DNA of 32,452 nucleotides from a virus. This document shows positions 7,669 through 31,346 of this stretch, piece after piece. The DNA lies in the IMG/VR virus record IMGVR_UViG_3300044984_003852, positions 1 through 32,452 of that record, one strand, 5' to 3'. The notes under the pieces are model-generated. The model made no database searches and was not told the DNA's origin. It saw only the letters and a list, made by a program, of their open reading frames with translations. Numbering within the stretch: position 1 is the first letter of the stretch; the number at the start of each line of letters is the position of its first letter. The position numbers were made by a program, and so were the translations under genes.

Positions 7669-7697
7669 ATTATACTATATTTTTATGTTGATGTAAA
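7669..7697 (-). promoter_or_regulatory. Early promoter, TTTACA-17-TATAAT
   Basis: On the minus strand, -35 TTTACA (7692-7697) within GTTGTTTACA and -10 TATAAT (7669-7674) are separated by 17 nt. The spacer ends TATAG, as in the other early promoters of this window. It would drive the small gene at 7512-7649, the unknown gene, and probably uvsX and 41. Confidence 0.85.
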
Positions 7698-7703
7698 CAA
7701 CAT

Positions 7704-8384: not shown

Positions 8385-8413
8385 ATTGTACTATATTTTT
8401 AGATTTTTGTAAA
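8385..8413 (-). promoter_or_regulatory. Early promoter, TTTACA-17-TACAAT
   Basis: -35 TTTACA (8408-8413) and -10 TACAAT (8385-8390) with a 17-nt spacer ending TATAG, on the minus strand. The upstream GTTG block of the other early promoters is absent (ATATTTACA here). The downstream ATG (8376) is 8 nt from the -10. Confidence 0.75.
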
Positions 8414-10046: not shown

Positions 10047-10075
10047 ATTCTACCATATTTTTCGGCAAATGTAAA
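10047..10075 (-). promoter_or_regulatory. Early promoter, TTTACA-17-TAGAAT
   Basis: -35 TTTACA (10070-10075) inside AGTTGTTTACA and -10 TAGAAT (10047-10052), 17-nt spacer ending TATGG, on the minus strand. It would drive the acidic protein, the membrane miniprotein and the ligase. A 24-bp palindrome lies just upstream. Confidence 0.85.
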
Positions 10076-10099
10076 CAACTAATTTCAATAAAATGCATT

Positions 10100-13671: not shown

Positions 13672-13700
13672 ATTATACTAAAAAACCCGAACAATGTAAA
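13672..13700 (-). promoter_or_regulatory. Early promoter of DNA polymerase gene, TTTACA-17-TATAAT
   Basis: -35 TTTACA (13695-13700) and -10 TATAAT (13672-13677), 17-nt spacer, minus strand. It overlaps the terminator hairpin of the upstream unit: the -35 covers the loop-stem border and the spacer contains the downstream arm and U-tract. The -10 ends 6 nt before the gp43 ATG. Confidence 0.88.
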
Positions 13701-13718
13701 CAACAATTGTTCGGGTTT
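13683..13718 (-). terminator. Rho-independent terminator after the DUF5824-like gene
   Basis: On the minus strand, a 13-bp perfect stem (AAACCCGAACAAT / ATTGTTCGGGTTT) with a 10-nt loop, running into TTTTTT. It ends the regA unit just before the polymerase gene and overlaps the polymerase promoter. Confidence 0.88.
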
Positions 13719-17432: not shown

Positions 17433-17708
17433 TTATGCAACAATACCGCGGGCGCGATTTGGTGTACGATGTGTACCAAGACGATAGCGACGAACTTTTT
17501 CTCCGCGATTGGTTTTGCGATCATTGAGATAGATTGCAAAACCTTCTCCACGAAGTTGTGCAATTACACGAGACGGATCCGAAATTCCGCTTTGCTTTGC
17601 TTCACCAGCAGAAAATTCATGGCCTTCCAAAAGGAAGGAATAAATTGCATCGGCCTGAGTCATGTTCTTTGTGAGACGTGACAGTTTGTCTGTTTGTTTC
17701 TTAGTCAT
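17433..17708 (-). CDS. Winged helix-turn-helix DNA-binding protein
   Basis: 91 residues, basic. T-K-N-M-T-Q-A-D-A-I-Y-S-F-L-L-E-G-H-E-F-S-A-G-E-A-K reads as helices 1 and 2, S-D-P-S-R-V-I-A-Q-L-R as a recognition helix, and G-F-A-I-Y-L-N ... R-R-Y-R-L-G-T as the wing. The R-Y-R-L-G-T ending is shared with many small wHTH proteins of marine T4-like phages. It probably regulates transcription or binds DNA structurally. It is a single gene ended by its own terminator. Its leader has a run of 15 A residues 9 nt before the ATG, and no clear promoter, so it may be read through from the MoxR-like gene. Confidence 0.8.
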   Translation of the reverse strand: MTKKQTDKLSRLTKNMTQADAIYSFLLEGHEFSAGEAKQSGISDPSRVIAQLRGEGFAIYLNDRKTNRGEKVRRYRLGTHRTPNRARGIVA

Positions 17709-17781: not shown

Positions 17782-18978
17782 TCAGAAAGGAATTTCTTCC
17801 ACTGGAGGTTCAGCAGGAGCAACGATTTGTCCTTCCTCATTTAATTGAATGGAATTACCATCAATTTTTGTGTATAAATCTAGAAATGCTTCACGCGTTT
17901 CATTTTCAAATCGGCTGATACACATATTGATTGCGGTAAGGCGATCATTAAAGACGCTGTAAGCTTTAATAATGTGGCACAAGCGGCGTGTACTGATCAG
18001 TTCATCAACGCCTTCCGCTTCATATGTTTTGCGAATAACCGCACTCCATCCTACAAGTTTGTCAACAAATTCATCGTCTTTAATGTCAAGTGCATCGTGA
18101 TGCTTTTTAACAATGTTGTGTTCGGTTTTAAAGTTTGGATACGGTTGATCAATTGTTGCAATAAACCTTTCCATGAAAGCATCGTCAATAATACTAGCGG
18201 CGCTATACCGACCATCATCGCTTCCGCGGCCTTTGGTATTTGCGGTCGCAATAACATTAAATCCTTTTGCGGGATGGACCATTTGGCCGATCTTTTTAAT
18301 AAGAATTGGCTTACCTTCAAGAACACCTTGAAGGCACATAATTTTATTTGAACCACGGTCAATTTCGTCAATAAGAAGAATGCAACCACGTTCCATTGCT
18401 TTTACAACTGGTCCTTTGTGAAACACCGTTTCACCATTAATCAAACGGAAACCACCAATCAAATCATCTTCATCGGTTTCTGGGCTGATTTGAATTCGGA
18501 TATATTCACGATTAAGTTTTGCGCACGCTTGTTCCACCATCATTGTTTTTCCGTTACCAGAAAGACCGCTAATATAAACAGGGAAAAACATTTTGCTTTG
18601 AATCACCTTTTTAATGGTGGAATGTTCACCCCAGGCAACAAATGTAGGATCAACCGCGGGAACATAAACATCGTCATTGCAAAGTGTATTAATTTTTGCA
18701 GGTGCGGGAATTGACATATTGAAAACAGGTTCCGGTGCTGAGATCGTCTGAGCGGCAGGTGAGAATGATCCAGTCATACGGCCTTTAAAAAGGTCGCGCA
18801 AATCGTATCTACCATAACCGACTTTTAACGCATCGGTCATAAAAGTTTCTTGAATTTCTTTGTATTTCATACCTTCGGAACGACCTGCTTCATTAATAGC
18901 GGTAGTTCCGAAAAACGGTTTTTCGCCTTTTGCGAATAGTTGATCCAAAGTTGATTTCGCGGATTCAGTTAGTTTCAT
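17782..18978 (-). CDS. MoxR/CobS-like AAA+ ATPase
   Basis: I place the start at the ATG at 18978 (MKLTESAKSTLDQLF), because an early promoter lies at 19010-19038. The frame stays open to 19083, but those codons would be upstream of the transcript start. The protein has 398 residues: a helical N-terminal part with a proline-rich linker to about residue 110, then Walker A G-L-S-G-N-G-K-T at 138-145, Walker B I-L-L-I-D-E-I-D (190-197), sensor 1 V-I-A-T-A-N-T and an R-F-I-A-T-I segment. This is the MoxR/CbbQ/CobS class, which works with VWA-domain partners as a remodelling machine. The VWA partner is the adjacent upstream gene. CobS-like genes are known in marine T4-like phages; their role in infection is unclear. 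Confidence 0.92.
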   Translation of the reverse strand: MKLTESAKSTLDQLFAKGEKPFFGTTAINEAGRSEGMKYKEIQETFMTDALKVGYGRYDLRDLFKGRMTGSFSPAAQTISAPEPVFNMSIPAPAKINTLCNDDVYVPAVDPTFVAWGEHSTIKKVIQSKMFFPVYISGLSGNGKTMMVEQACAKLNREYIRIQISPETDEDDLIGGFRLINGETVFHKGPVVKAMERGCILLIDEIDRGSNKIMCLQGVLEGKPILIKKIGQMVHPAKGFNVIATANTKGRGSDDGRYSAASIIDDAFMERFIATIDQPYPNFKTEHNIVKKHHDALDIKDDEFVDKLVGWSAVIRKTYEAEGVDELISTRRLCHIIKAYSVFNDRLTAINMCISRFENETREAFLDLYTKIDGNSIQLNEEGQIVAPAEPPVEEIPF

Positions 18979-19009
18979 AATATAGGTTGTATCGTTTCCC
19001 GATGAAGTT

Positions 19010-19038
19010 ATTCTACCATATTTTGCACGGTTTGTAAA
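19010..19038 (-). promoter_or_regulatory. Early promoter of MoxR-like gene, TTTACA-17-TAGAAT
   Basis: -35 TTTACA (19033-19038) in AAAAAGTTGTTTACA, -10 TAGAAT (19010-19015), 17-nt spacer ending TATGG, minus strand. Unlike most others here it leaves a leader of about 25 nt, with CGGGAAA but no convincing Shine-Dalgarno. It sits just before the end of the VWA gene's downstream region. Confidence 0.85.
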
Positions 19039-19063
19039 CAACTTTTTATCGAAAGAATCATTT

Positions 19064-21430
19064 TTATGCAATAATTTCAGCAAATTTGCTCAGAAATACT
19101 CTGGAATTCCTTTTCTCGGAGGTAAATTTGGTAAAATCCTTAGCCAGTTTGTTTTGTGCACTGGCTTCATTGAAACTTTTGCCTTCTTTAAGAGTTTCAC
19201 TTTCAAAGGTATCATCATTGTCAATGTTTAGATTTTTACTTCCTTCAAAAATGAAGTATGCGTCATATCCAAATGCACCTGTCACAAGAGTGCATTTTTC
19301 TTTCTTATTTTTCTTAACTTCAGTTTTGAAAGATTCCATACCCTCAGCCCAAGAAACGTCCTTTTTATTTTTAGAGTTGTATCTGAATGCATCAATACCG
19401 GTGGTTTTAATATCTTTTTGATTTTGTCCAATGAAGAATCCTATTGCGGTAGTACCACAAGTAATTTTCAAATTTTCAATAAGATCCAAATACATTTGTT
19501 TAGGCATTGTACCATAACCATAAGGGTTTTGTTCAAAATCAATTTCACGGCCGTGAATGTTAATTTTGAAGTTTTTGTTTCTTGTAAAATCTCCAGGTGC
19601 TGCTCCACTTACAGGTTTGCGATAATTAATATCTGTTGCTACATCCATTACGTTTACCTTTGAGCCATCACCATCAGTAAGAAAAACTGTATTCATTTTT
19701 TGAATTCGATTTTTTGTTTTGAAGTTTTTTACAATATCGTGAGCAATGATAATTGCTTCCAATAATGGTGTACTGCACATTCTTTCATAACCTGTGTTCA
19801 TATTAAATCTGCTCAAAGCATTTTTATTAAAGTTGAATAGTTGAGCTTTAAGTTCACGAACCGACAATTCAAATTTATCTTTTTTCATTGAGCTGTTAAG
19901 TAATTCAAAAACATGAGCTCTATCCTGCAATGTAATATGTAAACCAAATGTTGTTTTAATTCTCGGTTTATTATATTGTAAATCATCAGGGCCTGTGAAG
20001 CCATAAACCTCAAATGGAATTCCGACCGCTTTGCAGAAATAAACAAGTTGAAGTGTTTGATTCACAACATCTTCCAAAGTGTAGCGCATCGAGCCGCTAT
20101 AATCAATGAAGAATACCATTCCGTGAGATTTGGCATCAGCCAACGTTGTGACACTTTTGAAAATTTGATCTTCAAATTTGTAAGAATGAAGCTTATTGAC
20201 ATTAATAGAACCAGAATCACTTTGACGTGAGCGGCTGTATTGAAAAGCAGATTTTCTGCGTTCAAATTCTTTAATAAGAACAGCAATGTGTTTTTTTGTT
20301 TTAGATTTAAAATCAATAAAGTCATTTATAAATTCCGGGTTTGTCATTGCATAATTATAATGCGGACTTGCCTGACGAGCTTTCATAATGGTATCAATAG
20401 GAACAACGCAGTTCATTGTTTGTTCCTTTGTCGGTGAATTTACCACTTGATAGTTCATTTCTTTTTGTAAACTTTTCAAATTTGAATCAAATTCATTTTG
20501 TGTCATTGAATTCAATCCATCAATGATTTTAGAATTTAATTCATCTTGAGTGTCTGAATCGGCCGAATCATCTTTTTCATCTTGATCGGCAGATGGCGGT
20601 GGAGTTTTTTGTGAAGCACCTTCTTCTTGGCCTTTACCATCCGTATCATCTTCGGAATCATCTTGGCCTTTACCATCCGTATCATCTTCGGAATCATCTT
20701 GGCCTTCATTTTTGGTGTCATTCAAACCTTTGGTCTGTTTGTCATTTTCAGAATCATCATTCTCATCATCAGCAGGTTCAGGAGAAGCAATTTGTTCTTC
20801 AGAATCTTGATTATTCTGTTTTTGCTCGGAATCGGAATCATCTTCTTGATCTTCCTTTTCTTTCTCCTTTTCCTTTTTGACGAGATCATAAACATCTTTG
20901 CAAATATCAAGAACATCGTCATATGTTTCAGCTGCCAAACAACGAGAATAAATTGCTTCCTCTTCCTTGTTCATAGGCACTTGAATCAAAGCCCCAATTT
21001 TACCTCTAAGATTAAGACGGTCAATAAATTTTAAATTTCCGACAACAAGATTTTTGATTTTGAAAAAATCATTTTCAATAAAGTATTTGTAACCTTCATT
21101 GAAGGAATAAACAAGACCAGGATAATTGTCGCGGACTAATCGCTCAATGCGAATATCTTCAACAATGTTACCAATGTCAAATGGAGCACCAGGAATATGT
21201 TTACGGAATTTTTCAATAGCATCACTTGGTGTGTGCAAAGCATGACCAACTTCGTGGCCGACAAGCAAGTCGGAAACGCCTTTGTTGGTGGAATTCCAGG
21301 TTGGGAGACCTAATGTTCTACTTTTAATGTCAAAGAATGCAGTATTATAGTTTCCAACTACAACATCAATATTTTCCTTGGCCAAAAGCTTGGCCAGCAT
21401 TGTCTGAGAGTTTGAATTGACTGCCTTCAT
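19064..21430 (-). CDS. Zincin-VWA protein (CobT-like partner of MoxR ATPase)
   Basis: 788 residues in three parts. Residues 1-180 hold a metallopeptidase-like domain with H59-E-V-G-H63 and, about 30 residues on, N-I-V-E-D-I-R-I-E, whose Glu could be the third zinc ligand. Residues 190-300 are a very acidic, low-complexity linker with a perfect 36-bp tandem repeat. From about 430 comes a von Willebrand factor A domain with the MIDAS motif D443-Y-S-G-S-M and, later, V-F-L-T-D-G-D-G-S. The layout matches CobT-like/VWA proteins that pair with MoxR/CobS ATPases, the next gene downstream. It may act as a protease or as an adaptor that grips a metal-dependent substrate. The ATG is 6 nt from a -10, predicting a leaderless mRNA. 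Its target is unknown. Confidence 0.92.
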   Translation of the reverse strand: MKAVNSNSQTMLAKLLAKENIDVVVGNYNTAFFDIKSRTLGLPTWNSTNKGVSDLLVGHEVGHALHTPSDAIEKFRKHIPGAPFDIGNIVEDIRIERLVRDNYPGLVYSFNEGYKYFIENDFFKIKNLVVGNLKFIDRLNLRGKIGALIQVPMNKEEEAIYSRCLAAETYDDVLDICKDVYDLVKKEKEKEKEDQEDDSDSEQKQNNQDSEEQIASPEPADDENDDSENDKQTKGLNDTKNEGQDDSEDDTDGKGQDDSEDDTDGKGQEEGASQKTPPPSADQDEKDDSADSDTQDELNSKIIDGLNSMTQNEFDSNLKSLQKEMNYQVVNSPTKEQTMNCVVPIDTIMKARQASPHYNYAMTNPEFINDFIDFKSKTKKHIAVLIKEFERRKSAFQYSRSRQSDSGSINVNKLHSYKFEDQIFKSVTTLADAKSHGMVFFIDYSGSMRYTLEDVVNQTLQLVYFCKAVGIPFEVYGFTGPDDLQYNKPRIKTTFGLHITLQDRAHVFELLNSSMKKDKFELSVRELKAQLFNFNKNALSRFNMNTGYERMCSTPLLEAIIIAHDIVKNFKTKNRIQKMNTVFLTDGDGSKVNVMDVATDINYRKPVSGAAPGDFTRNKNFKINIHGREIDFEQNPYGYGTMPKQMYLDLIENLKITCGTTAIGFFIGQNQKDIKTTGIDAFRYNSKNKKDVSWAEGMESFKTEVKKNKKEKCTLVTGAFGYDAYFIFEGSKNLNIDNDDTFESETLKEGKSFNEASAQNKLAKDFTKFTSEKRNSRVFLSKFAEIIA
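20627..20706. repeat. 36-bp tandem repeat in acidic linker of VWA protein
   Basis: Two perfect 36-bp copies (20627-20662 and 20663-20698) plus the first 8 bases of a third. They encode repeated acidic 12-residue blocks of the form GKGQDDSEDDTD. In-frame expansion or contraction by slippage would change linker length without breaking the protein. Confidence 0.93.
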
Positions 21431-21436
21431 GTGAAT

Positions 21437-21465
21437 ATTCTACCATAAAGCAAGGCGGATGTAAA
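21437..21465 (-). promoter_or_regulatory. Early promoter of VWA gene, TTTACA-17-TAGAAT
   Basis: -35 TTTACA (21460-21465) in GAAAAAAGTTGTTTACA, -10 TAGAAT (21437-21442), 17-nt spacer ending TATGG, minus strand. The ATG at 21430 is 6 nt from the -10. The rest of the gap up to the gp46 stop (21466-21541) has no hairpin I consider a terminator. Confidence 0.87.
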
Positions 21466-21541
21466 CAACTTTTTTCAGTAGAATGAAAATATTTTCGATT
21501 TCACCCCTATTTGACAGCCAATCCGTTTAGATCTAAAGGAA

Positions 21542-29453: not shown

Positions 29454-31346
29454 TTAGCTGACCAAGTTGGCAGTTGTTGCCTTGTTCATGCGTGACATTG
29501 CACTTAAATAGTTTTGCATTGAAGGGGAAATTGTATCTCCTTCAATTTGATTTTCGACGATTGTTTCTTTTGAAATAAATGAAGCGTTATCGTCAACGTT
29601 TTCATTTAAAGTGTTTTTATCATTAGCTGCACGGCGGTTAACATAAAATTCACGAATGGTTGAAACCTTTTTAGTAAAGGTATCTTCATTAATAAATTCA
29701 ACATCTTCAACCATTTCAGTTAATTTTGCAATTTGGGTATCAGCAAGACCAGCAGAAGCTTCTGCAATTACTTTTTGACGTGTAAGTTTTTCAACACGAT
29801 CAGCAAGTGCATTTGCAATTCTTCCTTTGGTTGCAACTTGTTCTTTAAGGGCGGATAATTGTTGTTCCATATCTGCAACAACATTAACCTTACTTTCAGG
29901 AACTTCGATATAGTGTTCCGTAAAGATATTTTTAAGAGAGCCGATAAAGCTTTCAGTAATTTCTGTACGAAGTGTGGATTCAACGGCAACTTTGTTATCA
30001 TTAACCCATGTTTCAACAGCGTATGTTAAATATGAATCAATTTTTTCGACCAAGGTTTCCTTAATAACTTCAACTTCCTCATTGAGTTGCGTTGCATATT
30101 GTTCTTTCAACAGTGATTTGGTTTCCTTAACTTTCGAGGCGACAGCAGCTTCAAAAATGATGCTTGCCTTTTCCTTGAAACCTTCAGTTAAACCTTCTTC
30201 ACTTGAAACAAGTTCATCAATGTCAGTTGTGTCAATTTTCATTTCGGATTGTTCATCAATAATAACTCTCGCACCGTATTTTGGACTCTCATCAAATTCA
30301 AGACCAAGACCAAGCATATCTTCAACTTCTGCCACAAGTTTTTCATCCGACATTGATTTAAACGTATCAAGACTCCTATTGCCATCATCCATAATATGCA
30401 CAAATTTATATGCATAATACTTAAAGTCCTTTATAGGCATTTCAGAACTGTCATAAGTAAAATGATCGCTTAATGTATCTGAAGCTTTCCAAGCTTCTTC
30501 TTCTTCTTGGCTTAGTTCTTCTTCATCTTCATCTTCATCGTCATTTTCATTAACCGATTCTTTTTTAATGCGTTTAATGAATTCATCTTTGGTGAGCTTT
30601 TTGAAATTACGTTTAGCTTCTTTCATTTCGGATTCGTCTTTATCCATTTCCATCATGTCGGATTCGTCTTCTGATTCTTCGTCATCCTTTTTCATTACTT
30701 CGTCAATGTGCTGCTCAAGTGCATCAAAATCACCATTGACTATTAACTCCATCATTGCTGATTTGTGTTCTTCATCAGTAGGCATTGCGACCATTTTAAG
30801 CATATCAAGTAACTTTGCATCACCTTCTTCTTCATACTTTTCATTGCTCTTTGCGGCAAGTGTCTCCACTTGTTCATCAGTCAATTCAAGTTTTGCAGCA
30901 AGTGATTCAATTGTTTCTTCTTCTTCGACTTCCATATTTTCCATATCTTCGGCTTCCATAGGTTCAATATCATCCAGACTACGCATATCTTCCATGCTCT
31001 CATTCAGTTTACTGAGTGAGGAAAGAATATAATCTTTACTTCCCATTTTGCGTTGATTAAACACGATTTTGGTTTTTGGTGTATCCTTTGCTTTAAATGT
31101 GATTGACGATGGAGTAACCTCGACAACAACACCAAAGTTGGTTTTATCACCTTTTTTGTATTCTTTAACTTTATTTGCGATTGCAATAACTTCAGCTGAA
31201 TTCTCTTTAAGAGTGCGTTCAGCAATAAAATTATCAACTTCCTCTTGTACGGTTTGCTTTGTAATTTCCTCGGCAACACCATCTAGAGTAAGTAACGATT
31301 GTTCTGTGATGTCTTGAATGACATCGTTTTGTTTTTGTACTGACAT
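29454..31346 (-). CDS. 22: Prohead core scaffolding protein, gp22-like, enlarged
   Basis: 630 residues, more than twice T4 gp22 (269). The C-terminal 300 residues (long Glu/Lys helices ending A-N-A-L-A-D-R-V-E-K-L-T-R-Q-K ... S-M-Q-N-Y-L-S-A-M-S-R-M) correspond to gp22 by composition and position between gp21 and gp23. The N-terminal half has a small beta-rich stretch (F-G-V-V-V-E-V-T-P-S-S-I-T-F-K) and two very acidic segments (D-D-E-E-S-E-D-E-S-D and N-E-N-D-D-E-D-E-D-E-E-E). Several L-N-E, I-N-E and L-T-E sites fit degradation by gp21. T4 genes 67 and 68, acidic core proteins, are not seen here, so their function may be fused into this protein. A late-promoter variant precedes the ATG. Confidence 0.85.
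   Translation of the reverse strand: MSVQKQNDVIQDITEQSLLTLDGVAEEITKQTVQEEVDNFIAERTLKENSAEVIAIANKVKEYKKGDKTNFGVVVEVTPSSITFKAKDTPKTKIVFNQRKMGSKDYILSSLSKLNESMEDMRSLDDIEPMEAEDMENMEVEEEETIESLAAKLELTDEQVETLAAKSNEKYEEEGDAKLLDMLKMVAMPTDEEHKSAMMELIVNGDFDALEQHIDEVMKKDDEESEDESDMMEMDKDESEMKEAKRNFKKLTKDEFIKRIKKESVNENDDEDEDEEELSQEEEEAWKASDTLSDHFTYDSSEMPIKDFKYYAYKFVHIMDDGNRSLDTFKSMSDEKLVAEVEDMLGLGLEFDESPKYGARVIIDEQSEMKIDTTDIDELVSSEEGLTEGFKEKASIIFEAAVASKVKETKSLLKEQYATQLNEEVEVIKETLVEKIDSYLTYAVETWVNDNKVAVESTLRTEITESFIGSLKNIFTEHYIEVPESKVNVVADMEQQLSALKEQVATKGRIANALADRVEKLTRQKVIAEASAGLADTQIAKLTEMVEDVEFINEDTFTKKVSTIREFYVNRRAANDKNTLNENVDDNASFISKETIVENQIEGDTISPSMQNYLSAMSRMNKATTANLVS

Follow-up and report, generated by a model that had tools for sequence, protein, structure and literature searches.

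What do the two genes between gp46 and gp45 of T4-like phages do? The question is raised here by a T4-like phage genome fragment, positions 1 to 32,452 of IMG/VR virus record IMGVR_UViG_3300044984_003852 (the window), in which a gene for a VWA protein and a gene for a MoxR ATPase occupy this position on the minus strand. The cyanophage gene set has long included the pair as 'cobS' and 'peptidase' (PMC3037559, PMC8651126), and in 2021 it was named cobST, the 'peptidase' label being called a mistake (PMC8651126). Our analysis indicates that the module is real, strongly conserved and of an already described kind, and that it stands under a widespread misleading annotation. The pair is probably a NorQ/NorD-like assembly of a MoxR hexamer and a VWA adaptor with a metallopeptidase domain, which remodels and likely cleaves a target protein and is expressed before the late genes. 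The architecture as such is not new, since Iyer et al. described in 2021 a jumbo-phage MoxR-vWA pair with an N-terminal metallopeptidase, for which virion assembly was proposed as function (PMC7824862).

Conserved motifs and gene order

The first-pass annotation of this DNA had proposed a MoxR/VWA module in which the VWA protein carries an HEVGH zincin-like domain at its N-terminus, and motifs, family matches and fold models all agree with this. Both minus-strand open reading frames (ORFs) are real, and the limits given for the VWA gene were correct (Table 1). Pfam places the ATPase in the AAA_5 family (E 8e-22), and the protein has the motifs of a MoxR AAA+ ATPase, namely Walker A (GLSGNGKT), Walker B (ILLIDEID), sensor 1 (N247) and candidate arginine finger residues (R271, R331/R332). 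Among PDB chains it matched midasin, CobS, NorQ and CbbQ. In the VWA protein, the HExxH motif is followed by N88 and E91-D92, a candidate third metal ligand, and the combination of HExxH with an acidic residue downstream reads as a zincin signature. The second half of the protein contains a metal ion-dependent adhesion site (MIDAS) of the form DxSxS...T...D, made up of D443, S445, S447, T554 and D586.

Table 1. Positions of the two genes, their predicted domains and their putative promoters in the window
Feature	Position (nt)	Strand	Basis or remark
Zincin-VWA protein, 788 aa	19064..21430	(-)	phrog_459 'peptidase', E 1e-153
MoxR-type AAA+ ATPase, 398 aa (most likely start)	17782..18978	(-)	phrog_249, annotated CobS, 'porphyrin biosynthesis', E 1.6e-106
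Predicted N-terminal zincin domain, residues 1-200	20831..21430	(-)	conservation, model, structural matches
HEVGH, VWA-protein residues 59-63	21242-21256	(-)	
Acidic linker of VWA protein, residues about 199-291	20558..20836	(-)	pLDDT < 50
Predicted VWA domain with MIDAS, residues about 430-788	19067..20143	(-)	NorD VWA match
Putative VWA gene promoter, TTGTTTACA-N12-TATGGTAGAAT (extended -10)	21437..21468	(-)	
Putative ATPase gene promoter, same family	19010..19041	(-)	gap between the two genes

Conservation was assessed in 101 relatives of the VWA protein, the window included. Eighty of these loci were fetched by two DNA patterns, neither of which selects for HExxH; one pattern contains D443, thus the invariance of this residue is partly selected. 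H59, E60, H63, N88, D92, R94, D443, S445, S447 and D586 are invariant in all 101 proteins, and E91 is present in 100. Position 554 is a threonine in 98 proteins and a serine in three, and the MIDAS is complete in 98/101. The AAA+ motifs are invariant across 32 ATPases. Loss of the HExxH or MIDAS residues in most homologues, which the first-pass annotation had named as the outcome that would speak against the module, was therefore not what we found.

An ATPase gene was present on the same strand and within 3 kb of the VWA gene in 87 of the 93 loci with enough flanking sequence, and one of the other six has an ATPase gene elsewhere in its record. Where all four genes were seen together, their order was gp46-VWA-MoxR-gp45 in 61 of 62 loci, the pair being swapped in the remaining one. 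The VWA protein was found in 463 phage records, and known phages with the pair include cyanophages, the Pelagibacter phages HTVC008M and Mosig, and Stenotrophomonas phage DLP6. The 'peptidase' and 'cobS' genes of cyanophages and pelagiphages (phrog_459 and phrog_249) are orthologous to those of the window and have the same gp46-gp45 position, but all known phage records are <60% identical, and there the genes are annotated as B12 or porphyrin genes. Among the loci on contigs catalogued under bacteria or archaea (L106-L139), many are T4-like phage contigs with the same four-gene order, and this assignment is probably due to binning contamination. Directly downstream of the ATPase gene in the window lies a 91-aa gene (17433-17708), which has the same position in most close relatives and is possibly a third module member in this phage clade.

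Predicted folds and a NorQ/NorD-like model

The full VWA protein was modelled with AlphaFold2 (predicted local distance difference test score, pLDDT, 74), and residues 199-291 appeared as a low-confidence linker, which is acidic and probably disordered. Residues 327-788 of the model matched best with the VWA domain of NorD in the NorQ-NorD complex (9qh6, Z 17.1, 243 residues), and other NorQD entries gave Z scores of about 16. The next matches were the MIDAS domains of midasin (Z 14.5-15.8) and general VWA domains (Z 13-14). CobT chains were absent from the structural matches listed for the full model, which is not evidence either way. When the N-terminal 200 residues were modelled alone (pLDDT 88.5), the best match was ArdC (Z 6.3), and others were Ste24, abylysin, PprI, BepA, BlaR1, jannalysin and selecase. 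Although the scores are modest, the top matches were consistently zincins or zincin-like proteins, in line with a zincin fold of this domain. With ArdC, PprI and the minigluzincins jannalysin and selecase (Z about 5-6) the likeness is at the level of the fold only, and these proteins have no VWA half. A profile search of the PDB with the VWA-protein family gave nothing usable, mostly low-complexity matches to the linker, and the same was true of a phmmer search with the single protein. Of note, the linker of the VWA gene in the window contains a perfect 36-nt tandem duplication (20633-20704), the two copies of which encode an Asp/Glu-rich stretch; in the alignment, a close relative (L003) lacks it.

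Like the phage pair, NorQ/NorD (PDB 9qh6 and others) combines a MoxR hexamer with a VWA adaptor that has a MIDAS and a flexible linker, but the task of NorD is to help insert iron into nitric oxide reductase (PMC13036017), and no metallopeptidase domain has been described for it in the literature examined. By analogy, the VWA domain of the phage protein would dock into the concave face of the MoxR hexamer (PMC13036017), and the MIDAS metal would grip an acidic residue of the target protein. ATP hydrolysis would twist or pull the adaptor, thereby rotating the VWA domain against the N-terminal domain via the linker, and the target would be remodelled. The N-terminal metallopeptidase domain, on its long acidic tether, might then cleave the remodelled protein or process it in some other metal-dependent manner. 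Since this domain is apparently an intact metallopeptidase, the likely output would be remodelling coupled to cleavage. Signatures, pairing, gene order and promoter class come directly from the sequences and the folds from models. The docking of ring and adaptor is borrowed from NorQ/NorD, whereas proteolysis and any target we only infer.

Several observations weigh against this model. The Z scores of the N-terminal domain with zincins are modest (6.3 at best), a Foldseek search with this domain returned no match with E < 0.001, and no finger that would enter the ATPase pore was identified in the modelled VWA protein. Also, on five contigs of 4-14 kb the VWA gene is present but no ATPase gene was detected, and the retained HExxH could serve metal binding and not proteolysis.

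Promoters and expression class

The window contains three exact matches to TTGTTTACA-N12-TATGGTAGAAT, where shuffling predicts none, and two of them are located directly upstream of the VWA and ATPase genes. The motif looks like a strong promoter of the sigma70 type, with the -10 element extended. Its core is retained in relatives, both upstream of the VWA gene (L003, L004, L005, L009 and L014) and upstream of the ATPase gene (L003, L004, L005 and L009), in line with the earlier proposal that each gene has its own promoter of a shared family. The ATPase gene had been recognized correctly as MoxR AAA+, but with a start that was too long. In the ORF list it starts from TTG 19083 (433 aa), and because the promoter at 19010-19041 falls inside the extra 35 codons, translation most likely begins from ATG 18978 (398 aa). 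More copies of this promoter family are located at 10047-10078, 7669-7700, 13672-13703 and 8385-8413, upstream of other replication-block genes, among which is the DNA polymerase gene.

The T4 late promoter TATAAATA is present in the window 7 nt upstream of the gene for the major capsid protein gp23. Near the starts of the pair it was found in 1 of 101 VWA genes and 0 of 86 MoxR genes, which is the background level (about 0.018 per search window), compared to 19 of 35 regA genes. As sigma70-like promoters are present and the late promoter occurs at background level, the VWA and ATPase genes are likely expressed non-late; they would be transcribed from their own promoters before the late genes, within the replication and recombination block. 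Timing as 'early', as opposed to 'middle', is suggested by the promoter type only. A phage promoter upstream of the peptidase gene has been reported for phage DLP6 (PMC5349666), and in the published transcriptome studies in which we sought the expression timing, neither gene is mentioned. The late-type TATAAATA at 19 of 35 regA starts in the IMG/VR loci suggests that, in these phages, RegA, a translational repressor, may be produced at the late stage as well.

Besides the pair, the window contains genes for DNA polymerase, RegA, gp62, gp44, gp45, gp46, gp47, the late sigma factor gp55, UvsW, UvsX, a DnaB-like helicase, DNA ligase, gp23 and a head scaffold protein. The ORF of the latter (29454-31346) encodes 630 aa, with the Pfam scaffold domain only at residues 374-616, and its N-terminal half belongs to no clear family.

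Alternative roles and the wider family

The current names imply a viral cobaltochelatase, in which CobS and CobT subunits hijack the CobN of the host and the cobalamin so made supports the synthesis of nucleotides, an idea put forward in PMC8651126. CobS/CobT is likewise a MoxR ATPase with a VWA protein, the phage ATPase matches CobS better than NorQ or CbbQ (75 versus 48 bits), and cyanobacteria have CobN-type proteins, as seen in a control match in Synechococcus elongatus, the family including Mg-chelatase too. However, the ATPase scored 67.4 bits against the CobS equivalog, far under the cut-off of 558.55 (TIGR01650), and T4-type ATPases formed one group apart from CobS in a tree that, with four divergent rows left out and long-branch warnings, gives weak support only. 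The VWA protein of the window matches no Pfam family at E 0.1, PF06213 and PF11775 included. Its plasmid relatives, which have an intact HExxH, do have matches to PF06213, the CobT family (E 1e-10 to 1e-11), which argues for shared ancestry of the phage protein and CobT, and through them the N-terminal domain of CobT can be aligned. Of 31 authentic CobT proteins, most of them alphaproteobacterial, none retains HExxH, versus 101/101 phage proteins; the CobT proteins align over the same stretch with forms such as HHDxxxH in its place, and CobT looks like a degenerate cousin of the phage VWA protein. Only 2 of 50,697 phage records contained CobN, and the 20 ORFs scanned in the window contain no cobalamin family besides the ATPase itself. 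SAR11 bacteria are not known to make B12. Pelagibacter phages carry the pair, yet SAR11 lacks the B12-dependent methionine synthase (PMC12478193). Because CobT lacks HExxH and CobN is found in so few phage records, a cobaltochelatase role of the pair is unlikely, and we give it only a slim chance. The suspicion of the first-pass annotation that CobS/CobT naming misleads here was thus justified, the linkage to cobalamin genes that would have spoken against it was sought and not seen in the window ORFs scanned, and 'peptidase' is the more informative label.

The pair could also be a virion assembly factor, in which the chaperone pair and the peptidase process structural proteins, as suggested for jumbo phages. 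There the architecture is identical, with a vWA domain fused to an N-terminal metallopeptidase beside MoxR in large phages, a comparison of architecture and not of sequence, and a MoxR-vWA pair without peptidase is reported to act in the tail assembly of an archaeal virus (PMC7824862). This role is unlikely in the present case. At the pair, the late promoter that marks gp23 and more than half of the regA starts is at background level, which is an indirect argument against late expression. The pair has non-late promoters and sits in the replication block and not among virion genes, and related modules occur on conjugative plasmids, which have no virion. Somewhat less likely again is a NorQ/NorD-like chaperone that inserts metal into a phage or host metalloenzyme, for instance ribonucleotide reductase, with the zincin site binding the metal and handing it over instead of cutting protein. 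The closest solved VWA structure, NorD, does serve iron insertion (PMC13036017). The metal-site signature is also invariant, but so is E60 at the position of the catalytic base. In zincins this base is the E of HExxH, and metal binding alone does not need it. Moreover, no metalloenzyme gene was consistently adjacent among the annotated phages examined.

Distant HExxH and VWA relatives were found on plasmids, accompanied by a MoxR ATPase and in most cases also by a DUF3150 protein (Vibrio p123, IncC, IncHI and a Proteus plasmid), while a related module without DUF3150 is present on an Erythrobacter megaplasmid. Their neighbours are genes for ssb, Bet or RecT, lambda-type exonuclease, and helicases or toprim proteins. 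The MoxR, DUF3150 and VWA modules of conjugative plasmids and integrative and conjugative elements (PMC2642839; IncC, IncHI, p123) thus share with the phage pair the HExxH-VWA protein and MoxR, and lie beside ssb, Bet/RecT, exonuclease or helicase genes, but they have the extra DUF3150 protein, and the similarity of the N-terminal domain is very low (about 20%). In the unrelated phages Rhizobium RHph_Y2_11 and ICP2, comparable pairs lie close to genes for DNA polymerase III or primase, and Stenotrophomonas ANB28 has an ATPase match near polymerase III. The VWA partners checked in unrelated phages retain HExxH (HEVAH and HECYH, and HEIGH in a Gordonia phage). An ATPase match in a Listeria phage, which may be a different MoxR, had no VWA neighbour with these motifs. 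Because phage early regions are rich in replication and recombination genes, the association of the module with them is suggestive and not proof. A defence or anti-defence role was considered as well and found no support in PADLOC, where the ATPase gave only matches with E > 1e-3 and the VWA protein none.

A more specific form of the remodelling and cleavage model would be a replication-coupled, AAA+-driven metalloprotease common to phages and conjugative elements. During replication and recombination, it would free the DNA of the element from stuck proteins, by stripping them off or cutting them, or would clear away a protein of the host or of the replisome. The eukaryotic p97-SPRTN team offers an analogy. 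Hints in this direction are the gp46/gp45 location in phages, the ssb-Bet/RecT-exonuclease, helicase, DNA polymerase III or primase neighbours elsewhere, and the distant structural kinship of the N-terminal domain to ArdC and PprI; we regard this specific version as rather doubtful.

T4-like cyanophages and Pelagibacter phages, which are among the most abundant viruses of the ocean, have the pair in common, and cobS serves as an ecological marker that is taken as evidence that phages boost vitamin B12 of their hosts. With E60 and the Walker residues being invariant, single point mutants could answer the question. If the pair is a protease-remodelling machine, these inferences on B12 metabolism would be mistaken, and marine phages would have a nearly universal function in infection that still awaits discovery.

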